A stretch of DNA of 64,000 bases from positions 744,001 to 808,000 of the forward strand of contig JABTUA010000002.1 of the NCBI GenBank assembly GCA_015075635.1. Direction: 5' to 3'. The notes under the pieces are model-generated. The model saw nothing but the letters and a program-made list of their open reading frames with translations, was not told the DNA's origin and searched no databases. Source of the stretch: Polyangiaceae bacterium (GTDB lineage Bacteria > Myxococcota_A > Polyangia > Polyangiales > Polyangiaceae). Made by a program: the position numbers and the translations under genes. Of this stretch, positions 42,035 to 51,565 are shown in pieces (the stretch's first letter is position 1; each line of letters begins with the position of its first letter).

Positions 42035-42196
42035 GGGGTTCGCGACGCAGGACCGCGCGACCCGTGGGCGAGCGAGCGATTCAGAAGTGTCGGCGGTCGC
42101 TTCGGCTTGACTGCGGAGTCGGTCCGGTCCAACGCCGACACCGGACGCTCGCGGGCGTGGGTGCTCGCCGAGGGAACCGGAAGGCAAGGTGAACTG

Positions 42197-43474
42197 ATGG
42201 CGTTTCTCGATGCCGCTGCGCTGCTCTTGGTGCTGGCCGCGGCCTTTGGCTTCGTGAACCATCACGTGCTCAAGCTGCCGTTCGCGATCGGCTTGATGGT
42301 GAGCGGCTTGCTCGCGTCGGGCGGAGTGCTCGTGCTGGATGCGCTGGTTCCCGCGTGGGGTGCCGCCGAGATGGTCCGGCGGGTGGTGATCGGGATCGAC
42401 TTCTCCGAGACCGTTCTCAGCGGCATGCTGAGCCTGCTGCTCTTCGCCGGTGCGTTGCACACCGACCTCAGCCAGCTGAAAGAGCGCATCGCGACGATCA
42501 GCGCGCTGGCCTCGGTGGGCGTCGTCATCAGCACGGCGGTCGCCGGCGGCATCGCGTTCCTGGGGTTCCGCGCGTTCGGGGTGGAAATCGGCTGGATCTG
42601 GTGCCTGGCGTTCGGCGCGCTGATCTCGCCGACCGATCCGATCGCCGTGCTCGGGATCATGAAGGCTGCCAAGGCGCCGAAGCAGCTTGAGGTCAAGGTC
42701 ATCGGCGAGAGCCTGTTCAACGACGGCACGGGCGTCGTGCTGTTCACGATTTTGGTCGGCGCAGGAGTCGCGACGATGTCTGCCGCCCCCGGGGCCGCAG
42801 AAGAGGCGCTCGGCACCGGCAAGATCGTCTCGCTGCTGGTCAAGGAGATCGTGGGTGGTGTCGCGCTCGGGCTAGCGCTGGGCTGGGTCTGCTATCGCGG
42901 ATTTCGAACGCTCGACGAGCCCAATCTCGAGATTCTCATGTCGGTGGCGACGGTGTTCGCGATCGGAGTCGTGGCGAGCAGGGCGCACGTGTCCGCGCCC
43001 CTGGCGGCGGTGGCCGCGGGCCTGTTGATCGGCAACCGAGGTCGCTTGCACGCCATGAGCGAGCGGACCGCCCAGAGCTTGGACGTGGTCTGGATGTTCA
43101 TCGACGAGATGCTGAACGCGGTCCTGTTCCTGCTGATCGGCTTCGAGGTGTTCGCGATCGACTACTCTCGCAAGAGCTACTGGATGGTCCTCTCGTGCCT
43201 GATCCCGGGCGTGTTGCTCGCTCGATTCGTCGGTGTGGCGCTGCCGATCGCCATTCTGCGACTCCGGCGCGAGATCGACCCCGGCACCGTGCGTGTCCTC
43301 ACCTGGGGGGGCTTGAAGGGCGGCATCTCGGTGGCGCTCGCGATGAAGCTTCCCGAGTTCGAGGGCCGTAACGCCGTCCTCACCGTCACCTACGGCATCG
43401 TCATCTTCTCGATCATCGTGCAAGGGCTCACGGTGGGCCGCCTGATCCGCCGAGTGTATCCGCAGCCGAGCTAG
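42197..43474 (+). CDS. Na+/H+ antiporter (NhaP/CPA1-like)
   Basis: 425 residues with about 12 membrane helices. The cation-site region GALISPTDPIAVLGI and GESLFNDGTGVVLFTIL is characteristic of CPA1 antiporters (Nha/NHE type), with Asp in SPTDP and the ND of FNDGTG, and the later RGGLKGGIS-like TWGGLKGGISVALAM segment. It would exchange cytoplasmic Na+ for H+. ATG 42197 is chosen over an upstream GTG-type extension because it starts directly with the first helix. About 160 bp of unremarkable sequence separates it from the MAPEG gene. Confidence 0.9.
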   Translation: MAFLDAAALLLVLAAAFGFVNHHVLKLPFAIGLMVSGLLASGGVLVLDALVPAWGAAEMVRRVVIGIDFSETVLSGMLSLLLFAGALHTDLSQLKERIATISALASVGVVISTAVAGGIAFLGFRAFGVEIGWIWCLAFGALISPTDPIAVLGIMKAAKAPKQLEVKVIGESLFNDGTGVVLFTILVGAGVATMSAAPGAAEEALGTGKIVSLLVKEIVGGVALGLALGWVCYRGFRTLDEPNLEILMSVATVFAIGVVASRAHVSAPLAAVAAGLLIGNRGRLHAMSERTAQSLDVVWMFIDEMLNAVLFLLIGFEVFAIDYSRKSYWMVLSCLIPGVLLARFVGVALPIAILRLRREIDPGTVRVLTWGGLKGGISVALAMKLPEFEGRNAVLTVTYGIVIFSIIVQGLTVGRLIRRVYPQPS

Positions 43475-43539: not shown

Positions 43540-46500
43540 TCAGCTCGCCGCGAGCTGCTTTCGCCGTGAGCCGACGTAGACCTCGCCGGTCGTGCCGTGG
43601 ATGCTCACCACGTCCCCCTTCTTGATGCGGTGGAGCACGTTGCCCTGAGCATCGCGGATCAGGGCCTCGTGCCGGTCCCCGAAGACGCTCAGGTTCTGAC
43701 CGCTGACCACGCCCGAGTAGTCACGATCGAGCCCGTTGCACGCGACGGCCGCGTGCGAGGTCGAGCCGCCGCGAGCGGTGAGCAGCCCACCCGCGGAGAT
43801 GATCAGCGGGATGTCGTCTGGCGTCGGGTTCTCGATGATCAGCAACAACCCGTCCACGTCGTCGCGCTGACTGAGATCGACCTTGGACAACTCGGCGAGA
43901 TCGGCGTCGTCGAACACCGCCAGCCCGCGGAAGCCGCCGCCGCGCACTCCGAGGCCGCGCGTGGCGGGCTCGCCGGGCTCCAGAAAGCGGTCCGTCGCCT
44001 GGTCGATGCGCGCCTCCGCACGTCGCGTCTGCAACACGCTCAGCACGCCCCGCTCCACCGTGAACTCGATCTCCTGGTCGGTGCCCATGAAGCGCCGGAT
44101 CTTCGCTACCGCGTGCTTGAGCCGCGTCTCGAGCATGGGCATCAAGGTCTCCAGCTCGCCGATCGGGCGGAACGAGTCGGCGAAGGTGACGCCGCTCACC
44201 AGATCGTCCCCGGCGGCCGAGAACTTGACCTCGCCGTCGAACGCCCGCACGCCGGCGCTCGTCGGGAACGTCCGGGTGATGACACCGGTCAGAGAGGCGC
44301 GCGTCTCGTCCATTCCCGGCTCGATGCTGTCGTTGACGCTGTTCCCGAACGCCATCTCTTGCACGATGACGGCCGTGCTCCAGCTGTGGCAAAGGCCCTT
44401 GATCTCGCGGAAGCGGCTCGCCGTGTCCGCGTCCCAGCAGGCGTAGACGGCGTTCACCGCGCAAACCAGCTGTGAGAACGGGTCGGCCAGCGCCGCGTCG
44501 AGCTCTCTGCCGTAGCCGGCTTCGCGCAGCCGGCGCTTGGACTCGTCGGCGACCTCCTTCATCGCCTCCCAGGGCAGCTCGTGCTTGTAGCGCACGCCGT
44601 GGCGCTGCTTGGCCTTCTCGACCAGATCGTGTTGCTCGAGGTCCACGCCCCAGACCGCGCCGGAATACGATGCCAGGAAGCGCCGGTACGAGTCGTAGGC
44701 TCGCCAGGGACCGTCCGCGGCGAGCTTCTCGGCGATGGCGTCGTTCATGCCGACGAACACCACGGTGGAGAGGATGCCGGGCATGCTGAAGACCGAGCCA
44801 CCGCGCACCGCGAGCACCATCGGGCTCTCTTCCACCACGCCGAAGCGCTTCTCGACGCCGTCGCGCCGACTGACGTCACGCTCGAGAATGGCCAAGTGCT
44901 CGGCGAGCTCGCGGCGCAACCGCGCCGGATCGCGCCGCTGGAGGCCTGCTCGGCCGTAGCTCGTGGGCAAGACGAAGCCGTCGCGGGTCGGGACGTTCAG
45001 GTAGCTGATGTAGCAGAGCCCGCTCCCCTTGCCGCCGTAACGCTCCCGCAGGCTGCGTGTCCCGCTCTCGTCTCGCACCCATTCGGCGATCGCTGCACGG
45101 TGCGAGATGTGGAGCACCGGGTCGGTGACTCGTGCGAGGTCCAGCTCGGGCCGCGGCTTGCGCAGCGGCTCCCCCCGGGCGAGCCGCGCGCGCACGAACG
45201 TCGCGGCGAAGTCCGAGAAGCTCACCATGCAGTTGAGGTCGTGCATGTAGCGCTGGATGTTGGCGAGGATCTGCCGCAGGTCGCCGGGCTGCAGCCCGAG
45301 GCGCTCCTGCATCTTCTCGTACGGCATGGTCACCCGCTGGCGCACCCGGTGGTAGACGCGCTCGATGTTCTCGAGCACGTTCAAGAGCTCCTCGTCGCTG
45401 CGCATCGGATCGGCGAGCATCACGCCGAAGTCGTTCAGCTCACGCGAGAACAACCCGTCGAAGCGCAGGTTCGTCGCGCACATCCGGATGATCTCGACGC
45501 ACTGAGCGAGGTCGACCCCGTGCTCGTGATAACTCGTGGCCACGTGCCGGAGCGCGAGGTAGCCCATCTCTTCGAGCAGTCCCTCGAGCTGACAGAGGTA
45601 GTAGCGCTGCTCGTCGAAGGCCGCGTCTTGAATCAGCTTCACGATCAGCGCGCGTGCCGTGCGCGTCTTGTCGAACGCCTCGAAGAAGCGCTCGGCCTCG
45701 TGCGCCTCCAGCGTCTGCGCAAGGGCGTTGAACAGCTCGTCCTGGTGGGCGGCGCGGATCTCGCGCACGAAGGCCTCCACGCCTTCGCGCAGCGCGCGCT
45801 CGGTGGACTCGCGGTCGAAGCCGGCCTCGTCGGGCTTCTGCTGCGCGGCCTCGGCGATGCGCGTTCTCAGCTCTCCGCCAAGGCCTTCGGGCCACCAGAA
45901 GCTCTGGGTCTTGCCCTCCAGAATGCGCAGGTGATGGTAGTAGACCCAGCGGTTCTTCTCGATCAGACCCTTCTCGACGATGGTCTCGAGCTCCTGTTCG
46001 ATCGAGCTCCCGAACTCGCAGCGGGTGAGCACCTCGGCATAAGATTCCTGCCACTCCTCGATCCGCTTGACGATCTGCGAGGTGCCGAGCAAGCGCTGCA
46101 GGTCGTCGACCACGCGTTCCAAGATCTCGAGCGGCTCGCCCTTGCCGCGGGCGTCGTGGTCGGCCTTGCTCGGCTCCCCGAAGCCGAGGTTCGCCAGGCC
46201 CGCGCTGTCGCCGGTCTGGAGAAACTCACGGTAGGCGAGCGCGATCTGCAGCGTGCGCTTCCCGAGCGCGTGGTGGCACGTCCGCCTGAGCTCGTTCACC
46301 ACCGCGCTACCGGGCACCCGGATCTCGGCCAGCTCGATGGTGTCGTTCCACAGCCGGTCGATCACGTTCGGCTTTCCCACCAGGCTCGACAGATTGCGCA
46401 CGACGAGGCGAGACAGGAGCAACAGCCGGCGGCGCAGGGGGCCGTTCAGGAAGCGGGTCAGCTGCGCCGTGAGGGCTCGGATCTCGGGCTGCAGGTTCTT

Positions 46501-49500
46501 GGCCCCCAGCAGGTCCTTGACGGACAGGTGGCTGAGCCGCGCCGCGAGCGCCCTGAGCCAGAACACCGCATGATTTCGGTTGGTCGTGGCGTTGACCTTC
46601 TCGAGCAGAGCCGCGACGTCCCGGATGCGGACGATGGGAAGCAGCGGTGTCTCTTCGGGGCGGACCAAGTAGAGCAGGGACTCGAGGTCGATCGGCTCGC
46701 CGCTCGCGCCGGCGACGCGCAGCACCAGGGCGTCCGTGAAGATCGTGCCGGGGGCGAAGCGCCTCTCGACGAGCACCGAGCTCTGCTCGGCCGCGGCGCG
46801 ATGCAAGCTCAGCTCGTTGTCGATCAGGTATGGGATCAGCAGCTGCTCGCCGCTCCTGAACACCCGGTTGTTCACGATGCCGAAAGGACGCTCCGGTCGG
46901 GCGAGGCGTGACTTGGCCGCGAGGTAGCCGCGGAGCGCGGCCTGAAGGTCGGGCTTTTCACCGAGCAGCGTCGAGGCCAACGCGCGGTCGAGCTCCGCCA
47001 GGACGGCGGCGTCCGGGCTCGGCGCTCCGGCGCTGGCCGGCGGCTCCGATTCTGCTGACTCCGGCTCCACCTGCTCGGTCGGCGCGAGCGCGCGCGCCGG
47101 CGAGTACGCGTCCCGCAGCGCGCGGAAGTAGTCCTTTGCGAAAGCGACGTCGGGGCCGTCGCCTTCGCCCCGCGCGAGCTCGCCGAGCGCGTGCTCTGCG
47201 AGCGCTGCCGGCGGCTCGGTCACGTGCTCGCGGATCCAGCGCACCACGCCGGCGGCTCCGACCATGCGATCACCGGCGGGTTGCTCCTTCCCGAGACGTT
47301 CGAAGAATCGACGCGTGAAGCCGAAGTCCCCCTCGGCGAGCTTGCGCGTGGCGTCGAACGCGAGCGACTCGTAGCGAGCGGTCGCGTCGCCGGGGATGCG
47401 CTCGAGTGACGCTTCCCGTCGAGCGTAGGCGGCGACGTAGCGGTAGACGCCCTTTGGCCCGAACGCCTCGAGCTGGTCGGCGTCATAGAGGAGCTGCGCC
47501 TCGAGCCCCGCCTGCTTGCGCCGCTCGACTCCCGCCGAGCTTCGATCTTCGTGCAGCACGATGGCATCGGCCACGCGCTCGACCTCTCTCTCGCCGAACC
47601 CCCGGAGCTCGGGCAGCAGCGCCCGCGCGCGCTCCGCTCCTTCGGCTCCGTGAGGGGCCTTCTCCGCGGCGACATCGTGCAGGCCAATCGCAGCCGCCAG
47701 CACGCGCCAGTCCACCTCTTGCTCCACACCGAGCGCGGCGACCAGGCGCTCTGCTCGGCCGAGGAGGTCCTTGGCGTGTACGAGGCCGTGATGAGCGTCG
47801 TTGCGGTAGCCCGCTCCGAGACGCTCGGCGATCGAGTCGAGCACCTCCGCCGCGACGGCCGGCGACGCGCTCGTCGCGGCCAGCTCCGGCGCCCGCTGGG
47901 CCGGGACCGGGAGCAGCTCCGGCACGAGCTCCGGCTCCGGCTCCGGCTTCGGTCGGGCTCTGCGCGGAGGACGTGGCGGCTGGGCGCTCGGCGCCACCAG
48001 CTGGGGCTCGGCGCCCGGCGCGAGATAGATGCCGGTGAGCTCGCGCAGCACGTCGTGCAGCGGCTTGCCTTCGCGCTCGAGCAGACCCGTCACCTCGCGC
48101 AGCGCTGCGACGTAATCTTCGAAGCGGCTGCCGGCGATCTCCACACCGTGGAGCGCGGCGAGCCGGTCCACGATGGACATCATCTCCTCCCGCAACAGCT
48201 CGTAGAGCTCCTTGCCCTGCACGCGAGCGATGGCGCGCCCCAGCGCCAGCGACACGCTCAACATGGCGTTCATGCCGATGTTCTGCTTGCGCTGCATCAC
48301 GCGAATACGGTCTACCAGCGCGGCATCTTCGGCGATTTTGCCGCGACGGGTGGCGGTTCGGAGCTCGAGGCCGAGCAGCGCGCGGTCGAGGTCGAGCAGG
48401 CCGAGCTCCGCCACGTTCTTGCCCTCGAACCACGGCGCCAAGATCCGGGTCACGTTGTCCACGGCTCCGAGACAACCCTTGCCTCCGTAGCGCTGCGCGC
48501 GAAGGTAGAGCTCGGTGAGATCGTCGTCGCCCTCGGCGCGGATGCGGGCCTCGTCCAGGCCCTTCTTGAACGCGTGGACGCCGAGCTCCACGTCCTTGAA
48601 CAGCGAGGGGAAGCGGTCGACCACCTCCTTGTGCTCGGCATACTCGACGGCGGAGTCGACCAGGTGGATGGCCTCGCCGGTCCCGGCCGACGTCCCGAGC
48701 GGCGTCGCGCCCCTGAAACGCAGCGAGACGCTGCCCGCGGGCAGCCAGATCTCTGCCGTGCTGCCCACCGTGGGAATGCCCGCGTTCGTCGGCTCCTCGT
48801 AGCCCCGGATCTTCCGCACCAGCGCCTGATCGCCCTCGGCGAGCCCCTGGCTGTCGAGCGACTCGTCGAGCTTCAGCAGCAGCTCGGACACGGCCTGGTA
48901 CTTCACCAGCCGCTCGGTGTTGGCGCCGCCGCCGGCCTTGAGCCCGAGCGAGTTGGCCGCGAGCGCGATGTGCGCCTCCATGTCGTCGTTGGGGCTCTTC
49001 GAACGGTGCGACACCACCAGCTCGAGGCCCTTGCCCAGCGCCACCAGCATCGCCAGCAAGGTCTCGTAGAGGGACCCAATCTGGTTGGCCTTGATCAGGG
49101 CGCAGTTGATCAGTCCCTGATCGGCGGCCTGCTCGATGGTCTTGTCGTTGGTGGTGACCAGGTCGTCGCCGATGATGAACACGCTCTTGCCGAGCTTCTC
49201 TTCGAGCAGGCGCCAGCCCTCGTGGTCGTTCTCGGAGAAGCCGTCTTCGATGGACAGAAGCGGGATCTCGTACTTCTCGATCGCCTGGGTGTACACCTCG
49301 AGCACGCCGTCGCGATCGAGCACCGTCTTGGCCTTGTCGCGCCAGAACAGGTACATGCCCACCGCGTCCGGGACGTTGTGCTCGTCCCGATACGCCAGCT
49401 CGAGCTCGCTCAGCGCCGGATCGAGCGCGATGGCCACGTCCACACCCGGACGGCAACCGCAGTCGGCGATGGCGCGCTTCATCATCGACCAGAGGCGCAC

Positions 49501-50535
49501 CTCGGGCAGCGGATAGTCCCCCTTCTCGATGTAGGGAGCGAGCCCGCCCTCCAGGCCGATGCCCATCACGCGGCAGCCCTCTTCCTTCTCGATGATCTCC
49601 TTGAGCCGGTTCTGCAGCCGGACCGTCAGCTCCTGCGCCTCCTGATAGCTCGTGGCCGAGAGGATCAGGAACATCGCCTCCTGCATGCTCACGTTCGACT
49701 CGGGGTACTCCTTCTCGGTGTGGCGGCCGCCCATCCCGCAGTTGCGGAACTGCCAGGGAGCGGAGACGGCGCCGAGGCGCGGGTGAGTTCCCGTCTGCAT
49801 CCGGGTCCCGAGCATGCGGCGCTTGAGCTCCGGCGCCTGCGCCAGCCAGCCCGACAGCTCACCGACGGCCCTGGCCTTCTCCTCGGCCTGCCGCTCGCGG
49901 TCACGGAATGCTTTGTACTTGCCAGGGTCGGCCAGCTTGAAGTCGAGGAACGAGACCACACCAATGCCCAGGAGCAGGCGGCCCAGGTAGATGGGCACGG
50001 TGTGATCGCCGGTCAGGCCGACCGCGAGCAGCGCGATGGCCGGCGGCAGCGTGAACAGCGCTGCATTCCGACTCGCTCGCGGACCCGCCGCAGAGACGGC
50101 CAGGTTGTAGGGAGCGTCCGGGTAGTAGTTCAGTCCCTCGCGCTTGATGCCCGGAGCCTTGCCGTAGGGAATCAGCAGCCCGAGCTTCACGTACCAGAAG
50201 AGCCGCGCGGCGAGCGGAGCTCGCAGCCGCTCCTGGACCTGCTCGAGCACGCTCTCGCTCAGCGCGTTGAGGCGCGCAGCCGTAGAGAAATGGCCGAGCT
50301 CGTGCCAGGCGATGCAGAAGTGGAACGTCACGTACGTGAACAGCGCCGAGACCAGCGTCTCTGGGCTCACGAAGATGAAGCCGAGGACCTGCCCCTTCAG
50401 GAGTGACTCGGCCGGGAGGGCCAGCACCGAAGAGATGAACGCGACGTGAAACGCCACGAGGATGTGGTTGGCGATGACCCAACCTTCCTGGAGAGCAGCG
50501 CCACCGCTCGGTCGCTGCCCGTGTGCTCGTTGCAT
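43540..50535 (-). CDS. Giant multidomain protein: M50-like membrane domain, circularly permuted enolase, HD domain and PPDK-like ATP-grasp/phosphohistidine module
   Basis: 2331 residues, start supported by GGAGG 5 bp upstream (50541-50545). Order: membrane helices with HELGH (His78, Glu79, His82; about 1-215); enolase barrel (262-556) placed BEFORE the enolase N-terminal domain (572-783); Pro/Glu-rich linker (840-890); HD domain (905-1035, HD at 953-954, His995, Asp1018); long helical part (1180-1820); and a PPDK-like ATP-grasp (1828-2180) with phosphohistidine swivel (His2261 in GGSTSH). Enolase residues are kept: H272, E286, E329, D372, E430, D457, K482, H510-R511-S512, K533; the lid PLGTSAGTGEA (612-622) resembles the canonical Ser loop. 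The PEP/pyruvate barrel of PPDK is missing. A link between enolase-made PEP and the swivel is a guess. Confidence 0.93.
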   Translation of the reverse strand: MQRAHGQRPSGGAALQEGWVIANHILVAFHVAFISSVLALPAESLLKGQVLGFIFVSPETLVSALFTYVTFHFCIAWHELGHFSTAARLNALSESVLEQVQERLRAPLAARLFWYVKLGLLIPYGKAPGIKREGLNYYPDAPYNLAVSAAGPRASRNAALFTLPPAIALLAVGLTGDHTVPIYLGRLLLGIGVVSFLDFKLADPGKYKAFRDRERQAEEKARAVGELSGWLAQAPELKRRMLGTRMQTGTHPRLGAVSAPWQFRNCGMGGRHTEKEYPESNVSMQEAMFLILSATSYQEAQELTVRLQNRLKEIIEKEEGCRVMGIGLEGGLAPYIEKGDYPLPEVRLWSMMKRAIADCGCRPGVDVAIALDPALSELELAYRDEHNVPDAVGMYLFWRDKAKTVLDRDGVLEVYTQAIEKYEIPLLSIEDGFSENDHEGWRLLEEKLGKSVFIIGDDLVTTNDKTIEQAADQGLINCALIKANQIGSLYETLLAMLVALGKGLELVVSHRSKSPNDDMEAHIALAANSLGLKAGGGANTERLVKYQAVSELLLKLDESLDSQGLAEGDQALVRKIRGYEEPTNAGIPTVGSTAEIWLPAGSVSLRFRGATPLGTSAGTGEAIHLVDSAVEYAEHKEVVDRFPSLFKDVELGVHAFKKGLDEARIRAEGDDDLTELYLRAQRYGGKGCLGAVDNVTRILAPWFEGKNVAELGLLDLDRALLGLELRTATRRGKIAEDAALVDRIRVMQRKQNIGMNAMLSVSLALGRAIARVQGKELYELLREEMMSIVDRLAALHGVEIAGSRFEDYVAALREVTGLLEREGKPLHDVLRELTGIYLAPGAEPQLVAPSAQPPRPPRRARPKPEPEPELVPELLPVPAQRAPELAATSASPAVAAEVLDSIAERLGAGYRNDAHHGLVHAKDLLGRAERLVAALGVEQEVDWRVLAAAIGLHDVAAEKAPHGAEGAERARALLPELRGFGEREVERVADAIVLHEDRSSAGVERRKQAGLEAQLLYDADQLEAFGPKGVYRYVAAYARREASLERIPGDATARYESLAFDATRKLAEGDFGFTRRFFERLGKEQPAGDRMVGAAGVVRWIREHVTEPPAALAEHALGELARGEGDGPDVAFAKDYFRALRDAYSPARALAPTEQVEPESAESEPPASAGAPSPDAAVLAELDRALASTLLGEKPDLQAALRGYLAAKSRLARPERPFGIVNNRVFRSGEQLLIPYLIDNELSLHRAAAEQSSVLVERRFAPGTIFTDALVLRVAGASGEPIDLESLLYLVRPEETPLLPIVRIRDVAALLEKVNATTNRNHAVFWLRALAARLSHLSVKDLLGAKNLQPEIRALTAQLTRFLNGPLRRRLLLLSRLVVRNLSSLVGKPNVIDRLWNDTIELAEIRVPGSAVVNELRRTCHHALGKRTLQIALAYREFLQTGDSAGLANLGFGEPSKADHDARGKGEPLEILERVVDDLQRLLGTSQIVKRIEEWQESYAEVLTRCEFGSSIEQELETIVEKGLIEKNRWVYYHHLRILEGKTQSFWWPEGLGGELRTRIAEAAQQKPDEAGFDRESTERALREGVEAFVREIRAAHQDELFNALAQTLEAHEAERFFEAFDKTRTARALIVKLIQDAAFDEQRYYLCQLEGLLEEMGYLALRHVATSYHEHGVDLAQCVEIIRMCATNLRFDGLFSRELNDFGVMLADPMRSDEELLNVLENIERVYHRVRQRVTMPYEKMQERLGLQPGDLRQILANIQRYMHDLNCMVSFSDFAATFVRARLARGEPLRKPRPELDLARVTDPVLHISHRAAIAEWVRDESGTRSLRERYGGKGSGLCYISYLNVPTRDGFVLPTSYGRAGLQRRDPARLRRELAEHLAILERDVSRRDGVEKRFGVVEESPMVLAVRGGSVFSMPGILSTVVFVGMNDAIAEKLAADGPWRAYDSYRRFLASYSGAVWGVDLEQHDLVEKAKQRHGVRYKHELPWEAMKEVADESKRRLREAGYGRELDAALADPFSQLVCAVNAVYACWDADTASRFREIKGLCHSWSTAVIVQEMAFGNSVNDSIEPGMDETRASLTGVITRTFPTSAGVRAFDGEVKFSAAGDDLVSGVTFADSFRPIGELETLMPMLETRLKHAVAKIRRFMGTDQEIEFTVERGVLSVLQTRRAEARIDQATDRFLEPGEPATRGLGVRGGGFRGLAVFDDADLAELSKVDLSQRDDVDGLLLIIENPTPDDIPLIISAGGLLTARGGSTSHAAVACNGLDRDYSGVVSGQNLSVFGDRHEALIRDAQGNVLHRIKKGDVVSIHGTTGEVYVGSRRKQLAAS

Positions 50536-50540
50536 GGCAT

Positions 50541-50545
50541 CCTCC
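50541..50545 (-). promoter_or_regulatory. Ribosome binding site of the giant gene
   Basis: GGAGG on the minus strand lies five bases before the ATG at 50535, a strong placement that supports this start for the 2331-residue protein. Confidence 0.6.
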
Positions 50546-50714
50546 TTCGGGTCGGGGATGTGCCGATCCGGAGCGTACCGAAAGCAGTCGGCAGCACGTT
50601 GATCGATCGCAACAACGACGAAGCGCGTCCGTCCTCGAGTGCGCGCGACTTGCGCCCAGCGAGCTCGCTCACCCCCGGAGACGCACTGAATGCGCGTCTC
50701 GAGCTGGTCTTCAC

Positions 50715-51149
50715 TCAGATCTTGGCGCAGCTGTCACCGGGGACCCCGCCAGCGGTCACGGGAACGCACTGCTCCCCGCTCGCGCAGTCGTCCTTGGTGT
50801 GACAGCGACGTGCGACCCCGGTTTCGCAGGCATCCGTGCTCGCGCAGGCAAACCCAGTCGTCAGGGTGCCGCAGCACGGATTGCCGGCGCAGTCTTCCGG
50901 GCCGTCGCAGGCGAACCCCGGGTCGCTGCCGCAGCTCTGCGCGCAGCTGGCGGCACCGCTGAGCGGGACGCAGCAGCTCTGTCCCGCGGCGCAGACGGCA
51001 CCGCCCGCGCACTCCGCTCCGGCTTGTCCGGACGAGCCGCTGCTGCCGCCGCTGCCGGAGCCCCCGTCATCGTCGCCGTCGCCGCAGCCACCCGCGCCGC
51101 AAGCGAGACCCAGCGCACCCACCCACCACCATCGAGCGAGATTCGACAT
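50715..51149 (-). CDS. Cys-rich lipoprotein with Gly/Ser spacer
   Basis: 144 residues from ATG 51149. The lipobox is within GLACGAGGC (either Cys may be lipidated). A Gly/Ser spacer (residues 25-42) precedes a region with about 16 cysteines, including AGQSCCVPL, CDGPEDCAGNPCCG and CHTKDDCASGEQC. The module CDGPEDC is shared with the lipoprotein at 11751. Probably a disulfide-bonded surface domain of unknown ligand. It is 179 bp upstream of the giant gene on the same strand and could be a separate unit. Confidence 0.72.
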   Translation of the reverse strand: MSNLARWWWVGALGLACGAGGCGDGDDDGGSGSGGSSGSSGQAGAECAGGAVCAAGQSCCVPLSGAASCAQSCGSDPGFACDGPEDCAGNPCCGTLTTGFACASTDACETGVARRCHTKDDCASGEQCVPVTAGGVPGDSCAKI

Positions 51150-51565
51150 GGTCGCGCGACCAGCAAGGTGCGCGCCAAGTGGGAAAGGTCGCACGGCGAG
51201 CGACGACTCCGCTCCGACCCTGACGGCGCTGTCAGCGCTGTGCCCCGACGACCACACCGGCGAGGCGGAGCCCACCCCGGTGCAGGGGGAGCCACGCTGC
51301 GCGTGATCGGGTCAATGCCCATGGCCTGGTCGGTGCGCTTTCCGCTATGTTGCTCCGATGAGCCTCTCCGTCGCGCTGTTGCAGGTGATCGAGAAGCGTG
51401 GCGGCGCGTCGGAAGCCGACAAGAAGCTCGTGCGGATGCTCGCCGGACTCGGCAGCGCAGAGTGAGCCCCCTCGGACTTGCAGCAAGGCGGTGAGTATCG
51501 GTTGCAGCGCGGGGCGGGCCGCTGGCGGTTCCATCCGATCCGCGCCCCTCACCCGTTGAAGGGGC
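51150..51565. other. 416-bp interval with one uncertain short ORF
   Basis: Between the Cys-rich lipoprotein start and the hydrolase start no gene of normal size can be supported. Divergent promoters are expected at the ends. The only candidate is the 35-codon ORF at 51358-51465. The longest other readings are antisense shadows of the lipoprotein gene. Confidence 0.5.
51358..51465 (+). CDS. Possible 35-residue small protein
   Basis: ATG to TGA gives 35 residues: MSLSVALLQVIEKRGG followed by ASEADKKLVRMLAGLGSAE. It looks like one amphipathic helix. There is no strong ribosome site and no homology I recognise. It is reported because it begins and ends cleanly inside a long intergenic gap; it may equally be noncoding. 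Confidence 0.25.
   Translation: MSLSVALLQVIEKRGGASEADKKLVRMLAGLGSAE

Follow-up and report, generated by a model that had tools for sequence, protein, structure and literature searches.

Sequence analysis of a bacterial protein predicted to combine an M50-like membrane domain, a circularly permuted enolase and half of a pyruvate phosphate dikinase

Inspection of a 64,000-nucleotide stretch of DNA from a Polyangiaceae bacterium, hereafter called the window, revealed a gene whose product, judged by its sequence, combines an M50-like membrane domain, a circularly permuted enolase and a dikinase half in one polypeptide. We regard this anatomy, both the domains and their order, as nearly certain. 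Our best explanation of its function, which we put forward tentatively, is a membrane zinc-metalloprotease-like machine that would be coupled to 2-phosphoglycerate (2PG)/PEP and phospho-histidine chemistry, most likely gated by metabolites.

Results

The fusion gene occupies positions 43540..50535 on the minus strand and encodes 2331 amino acids, as judged from the open reading frame and its translation. Its ATG at 50535 is preceded by a Shine-Dalgarno-like AAGGAGG that was read in the sequence (50541..50547, minus strand). The domain order is M50-like domain, permuted enolase, HD domain, helical middle domain, ATP-grasp domain and His swivel; Pfam matches to the window protein ran in the order Enolase_C and then Enolase_N, with PPDK_N and PEP-utilizers at the C-terminal end. 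The same architecture minus the HD domain was found in many contigs. We considered the possibility that an annotation or assembly artefact had joined unrelated genes, an explanation favored by the fact that the relatives named in our genome scan are MAG records. However, the reading frame is open with no stops, and the identical join occurs in independent contigs and phyla as well as in the host's five-contig assembly, leaving an artefact extremely improbable. A convergent Na+/H+ antiporter gene lies downstream of the fusion gene (42107-43474, plus strand), and a gene for a small Cys-rich, secreted-looking protein lies upstream on the same strand (50715-51275, minus strand); no link between the fusion and either gene was shown.

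A search of other genomes for HExxH domains fused to enolase, as suggested in the initial annotation, identified recurrent fusions. The scan covered 84,980 species genomes and yielded 24 loci, all of them MAG records, most of which showed the same domain order across residues 15-2324, to the extent that their contigs reached. The carriers belong to Myxococcales/Deltaproteobacteria, to Lysobacterales and other Gammaproteobacteria, and to Acidobacteria, and the family spans at least three phyla (Myxococcota, Gammaproteobacteria and Acidobacteriota). A census with an M50-like profile gave matches in 8/377 genomes of the host phylum and 4/317 of the host class, in 13/200 genomes of the order to which a gammaproteobacterial carrier belongs, and in 10/217 genomes of the phylum of an Acidobacteria carrier; among 216 genomes of Planctomycetota there was one partial match of 41 residues. 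From these counts we conclude that carriers are sparse yet widespread. Within its own order the host is the sole carrier (1/183 genomes), and a Planctomycetota contig (L029) contained the dikinase half only. Where the contig was long enough, the loci examined contained the M50-like domain followed by the enolase barrel and then the cap, and the M50-like domain was never seen in these loci without the permuted enolase (frameshifts occur in L037/L067 and L047/L049).

Residues 1-215 of the protein correspond to positions 50535-49891. The M50-like membrane domain was assigned to residues 15-215 (49891..50493, minus strand) on the basis of sub-threshold PF02163 matches in relatives, hydropathy and conservation. 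The initial annotation had described a site-2 protease-like domain joined to an enolase, with HELGH at residues 78-82 and Asp198 as a possible third ligand. Both were located where it had placed them in the minus-strand frame, and three observations bear out the joining of the two domains, namely conservation, the trend of the Pfam matches and the recurrence of the fusion in other genomes. Within the zinc-site motif (50290..50304, minus strand), H78 and H82 are invariant in 28/28 covering copies and E79 is present in 27/28, such that HExxH is retained in all but one of the covering relatives. Asp198 (49942..49944, minus strand) lies in the segment FLDFKLADPGKYKAF (residues 196-210), which also contains Asp203, and both residues are kept in 31/31 copies. 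Because it is invariant, Asp198 is consistent with a role as the third ligand, although the motif reads LDF rather than LDG; among the copies the invariant Asp sits in LDF, FDF or LDV, and the Gly of LDG is absent.

Hydropathy analysis of the window protein predicted hydrophobic segments in this domain at approximately residues 20-38, 50-68, 154-172 and 179-197, and the HExxH motif, kept in 27/28 copies, falls within a hydrophobic segment. These predicted helices are the one line of evidence for the membrane anchoring that had been proposed, and from them the fusion protein would be located at the membrane. Peptidase_M50 (PF02163) was the sole Pfam family that matched more than one of 16 members (12/16 at E<=1, best E 1.2e-4), with a best score of 21.9 bits that was below the gathering cut-off of 27.2 bits, as were the scores in every other case. 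The window's own copy gave no Pfam match when searched alone, and searching PDB with a profile made from the M50 alignment returned chance thioredoxin matches only, with no sequence match to a solved S2P. The finding of this domain again in independent contigs argues that it is not a chance resemblance. Neither of the two outcomes that the initial annotation named as refuting it, a lack of predicted membrane helices and loss of the HExxH residues from homologues, was observed.

The domain resembles M50/site-2 proteases in the position of HExxH within a hydrophobic helix, in an AAGP motif region and in a conserved Asp located on a subsequent hydrophobic helix, but differs from PF02163 in having LDF for LDG and a Pfam score under the cut-off. 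On this likeness, zinc binding and proteolysis by the domain are predicted. Neither a cleavage site nor a substrate gene for the domain was found, and no gene for a conserved substrate, an anti-sigma factor or a site-1 protease could be recognised near the M50-enolase genes. One use of such proteolysis would be self-release, in which the domain cuts its own polypeptide or a partner's linker and thereby frees the enolase-dikinase portion into the cytosol. Self-release had been proposed in the initial annotation, and both the conservation of HExxH and the placement of the cargo immediately behind the final membrane helix favor it. However, hydropathy revealed no further membrane-type hydrophobic segment between the M50-like domain and the enolase, and S2P enzymes cut transmembrane segments, mostly those of other proteins. 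We consider self-release improbable.

Description of the protein as an enolase fusion was accurate as to the presence of an enolase but incomplete, as the enolase is circularly permuted and is accompanied by a dikinase half; proteins of the window's subclade also have an HD domain. The enolase C-terminal TIM barrel is placed first (residues 250-560; 48856..49788, minus strand) and the N-terminal capping domain second (residues 572-795; 48151..48822, minus strand). Pfam matched Enolase_C (PF00113) to residues 265-570 (E 1.1e-47, 163 bits, cut-off 21.5) and Enolase_N (PF03952) to residues 586-781 (E 1.2e-10, 42 bits, cut-off 35). Because this order departs from the canonical N-then-C arrangement, we conclude that the enolase is circularly permuted at the domain boundary; a short linker bridges the old C- and N-termini. 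As a consequence of the permuted order, the barrel would hang directly from the membrane domain. Residues 258-553 of an AlphaFold2 model, in the barrel, matched solved enolases with a VIA Z of about 20, and when its parts were restored to canonical order the window enolase aligned end-to-end with the host's ordinary enolase.

We examined the enolase active site using the yeast position numbering and catalytic roles, which we take from established enolase enzymology. The equivalents of S39, H159, Q167, E168, E211, D246, D320, K345, H373, R374, S375 and K396 are kept in 30/31 copies, and the E295 equivalent is present in all 30 copies that align there. All catalytic residues are present in the window protein, including the Ser39-equivalent loop GTSAGTGEA in the capping domain. 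The family has in common with canonical enolase (phosphopyruvate hydratase, TIGR01060) a TIM barrel and cap in which the residues for metal binding, acid/base catalysis and phosphate binding are identical, and turnover of 2PG and PEP is predicted. It differs in that the barrel precedes the cap, in its membrane fusion, in forming a separate clade, and in its TIGR01060 score (182-209 bits for the window protein), which is under the 300-bit NCBIfam cut-off.

In an enolase tree, 22 permuted enolases formed one clade with respect to 7 canonical sequences (support 100/100), with a long branch between the two groups and only these seven sequences representing the canonical one. L014 was the sister of the window protein, and the split forms L050/L069 were the deepest permuted branch under midpoint rooting. 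The tree would fit one permutation event and a later fusion with the dikinase half, the root and the order of events being provisional. Few enzymes are as conserved as enolase. We found no report in the open-access literature of a natural circular permutation of enolase, or of an enolase fused to a membrane metalloprotease-like domain.

The host genome also encodes, elsewhere, a canonical enolase, a full pyruvate phosphate dikinase (PPDK) and pyruvate kinase, from which we conclude that the fusion is a specialised paralogue. Canonical enolase scored over the cut-off in 17 of the 19 carrier or related genomes searched. Replacement of the housekeeping enolase by the fusion was ruled out, since the canonical enzyme coexists with it. 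Conservation of the zinc site and the enolase site go together (27/28 and 30/31), with one exception. This protein, L085 (G886:C59, 2-2959), is a degenerate tandem M50-permuted enolase in which HExxH has become HMMGH and nearly all enolase catalytic residues are lost, with a second M50-like start further on in the same frame. The joint loss of the HExxH Glu and the enolase residues suggests a pseudoenzyme copy; the co-loss was observed in this single protein. An AlphaFold2 model of residues 1-860 (pLDDT 63, pTM 0.61, 20 sequences) was too poor for membrane-domain or zinc geometry, and the Foldseek and VIA match lists for these 860 residues were filled by the enolase barrel and in effect did not probe the membrane domain.

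An HD phosphohydrolase-like domain (residues 911-1035; 47431..47805, minus strand) lies between the enolase and the middle domain in the window protein and its sister L014 only, and is absent from other homologues. It was recognised by PF01966 when searched alone (E 5e-4, under the cut-off) and by NCBIfam PRK10119 (E 1.6e-5). By eye, its residues H915, HD953-954, H996 and D1018 appear complete. The middle domain (residues 1180-1815; 45091..46998, minus strand) is helical in the model and was assigned to no known family, as it gave no convincing Pfam match and no convincing PDB sequence match. MbeD_MobD matched this domain in 5/16 members (best E 4e-4) and was rejected as coiled-coil similarity. 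A model of residues 1150-2331 (pLDDT 72) gave convincing structural matches for the PPDK part only; Foldseek with this second half returned PPDK matches and nothing convincing for the middle domain.

The C-terminal portion consists of a PPDK-type ATP-grasp domain (residues 1824-2174; 44014..45066, minus strand; PDB PPDK match, E 1.6e-48) and a phospho-histidine swivel (PEP-utilizers, PF00391; residues 2229-2327; 43555..43851, minus strand) with catalytic His2261. A PDB search placed residues 1817-2175 and 2229-2327 on the corresponding two domains of PPDK. In the ATP-grasp domain K1836, R1911, E2157, Q2169 and R2171 are kept in 17/17 copies, and the swivel His is kept in 16/16 covering copies. 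Phospho-histidine chemistry is predicted from the likeness to PPDK (TIGR01828). The TIGR01828 score of the window protein was 230 bits against an equivalog cut-off of 843 bits. A Pfam scan detected the PEP/pyruvate barrel family in none of 16 members. Among the best matches listed from a plasmid collection, there were ordinary PPDK-type proteins only.

ATP-grasp/swivel pairs are known to serve other, non-pyruvate acceptors in rifampin phosphotransferase (PMC4844700) and in the two-component dikinase HpeHI (PMC12167813). As in these systems, an ATP-grasp domain and a His swivel are combined in the window family, within one protein chain or across two, with an acceptor module that is not for pyruvate, but no aromatic- or rifampin-binding domain was recognised in it and the partner is an enolase. 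Another parallel is VadK (Rv1127c), a PPDK that lacks the pyruvate/PEP domain, functions as a regulatory histidine kinase and interacts with metabolic enzymes (PMC13400623). Unlike PPDK and VadK, the window dikinase half includes a helical middle domain, and it is either joined to an M50-enolase unit by fusion or adjoins one.

Across the genomes, three arrangements of the dikinase half relative to the M50-enolase unit were found: fused, encoded by the gene that follows on the same strand, or encoded by a convergent neighbor. In one genome (L087) it is the next gene, approximately 20 nt downstream. In five split-gene genomes (L050, L069, L081, L082 and L083) the dikinase gene is a convergent, tail-to-tail neighbor, and the partner is of a different dikinase type of approximately 890-906 aa. 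No dikinase was seen beside the M50-enolase in L084 or L086. Instead, a canonical-order enolase gene in L086 (6050-7492) is convergent with the M50-permuted enolase in the place of the dikinase gene, and the L084 contig ends within apparently the same ordinary enolase gene. From the three arrangements and these two loci we conclude that the core is the M50-enolase unit, with the dikinase half as its usual partner. No conserved gene neighborhood was found for the fused genes. Several other genes were observed at these loci. An open reading frame beyond the unfused pair in L087 (328-2640) resembles malic enzyme by eye, which hints at pyruvate/PEP metabolism, and a FIST N/C sensor-domain gene lies directly upstream of the split M50-enolase on the same strand in L050 (2004-3128; G386). 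Standalone middle-plus-dikinase proteins lacking enolase are encoded in L039 (7774-11715) and L040 (9185-12790), and one genome (G465) contains such a standalone copy together with a full fusion.

The dikinase arrangements bear on the possibility that the protein is primarily a phospho-histidine kinase of the VadK type. In this case the dikinase half would autophosphorylate and regulate the attached or the canonical enolase at the membrane, by contact or by phosphorylation, and the M50-like site would be secondary. The missing PEP/pyruvate domain, as in VadK (PMC13400623), and the standalone proteins L039 and L040 are in keeping with this explanation. However, L084 and L086 contain M50-enolase with no dikinase seen adjoining, and elsewhere dikinases of two clearly distinct types partner the M50-enolase, which makes the kinase appear accessory. 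We consider a VadK-type role unlikely.

A possible explanation, nearly as likely as the metabolite-gated machine, is a membrane-anchored metabolic enzyme. Here the M50-like domain would be mainly an anchor or scaffold, while the permuted enolase and dikinase half carried out a local two-step conversion. For example, the phospho-His might phosphorylate pyruvate or glycerate, the enolase would interconvert the product to PEP or 2PG, and the enolase barrel may replace the PEP/pyruvate barrel. The complete sets of residues kept in the enolase (30/31) and the dikinase (17/17), the absence of the PEP-barrel family from all 16 members, the repeated linkage of the two halves and the malic-enzyme-like, pyruvate-forming reading frame beyond the L087 gene pair are all as expected for such an enzyme. 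In contrast, an anchor would not need HExxH and Asp198, yet these residues are conserved as well as the enolase site, and enolase, PPDK and pyruvate kinase are already encoded elsewhere in the host genome. To our knowledge, enolase does not act as an acceptor of phosphate from a swivel His, which also counts against this explanation.

Discussion

Our preferred reading is the metabolite-gated machine. In this model the obligate core would consist of the membrane zinc site and the permuted enolase, whose barrel would bind and interconvert 2-phosphoglycerate and PEP. Opening and closing of the cap would be transmitted to the membrane helices and gate the zinc site, much as is supposed for the CBS domain that group III site-2 proteases carry (PMC10202637). 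Unlike those proteases, the window family has neither a PDZ nor a CBS domain, and its soluble part is made of metabolic enzymes. ATP, or a phospho-donor acting in the reverse direction, would charge the dikinase half with phosphate, and this half would supply phosphoryl groups to the M50-enolase complex or read the energy state for it. The output may be regulated intramembrane proteolysis, or another action of the zinc site, on a putative membrane partner, set by the glycolytic/gluconeogenic state. That the enolase gates the zinc site is something that we purely infer.

We favor metabolite gating because the M50-like domain always occurred with the permuted enolase in the loci examined, and because the zinc and enolase sites are kept jointly and were lost jointly in L085. 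Linkage of the dikinase half in three arrangements with its residues intact (17/17), the specialised role with a separate permuted clade (100/100), and the precedents of the CBS-containing group III proteases (PMC10202637) and VadK (PMC13400623) also favor it. Conversely, the full conservation of catalytic residues in both the enolase and the dikinase half suggests that the protein performs real turnover beyond sensing. The gating model is also weakened by M50 matches under the Pfam cut-off with LDF for LDG, by the lack of a recognised substrate, anti-sigma or site-1 protease gene nearby, and by a mediocre structural model (pLDDT 63, pTM 0.61) that gives no ligand geometry. Finally, L084 and L086 have no adjoining dikinase, and the co-loss concerns one protein.

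The components of this protein are known, whereas a search of the open-access literature yielded no description of the permutation, the fusion or the recurring partnership. The dikinase half is a second case, beside VadK, of a reused PPDK half without the PEP domain. It is conceivable, though doubtful, that the family represents an undescribed class of metabolism-gated intramembrane metalloproteases in which a permuted enolase serves as sensor or gate and a dikinase without the PEP barrel supplies or reads phosphate. Joint conservation of the active sites, together with the fused, operonic and convergent arrangements, points to a genuine functional unit through which central carbon metabolism is connected with the membrane. 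If the gating model is correct, the 2PG/PEP and ATP state of the cell would be linked directly to membrane proteolysis in several phyla.
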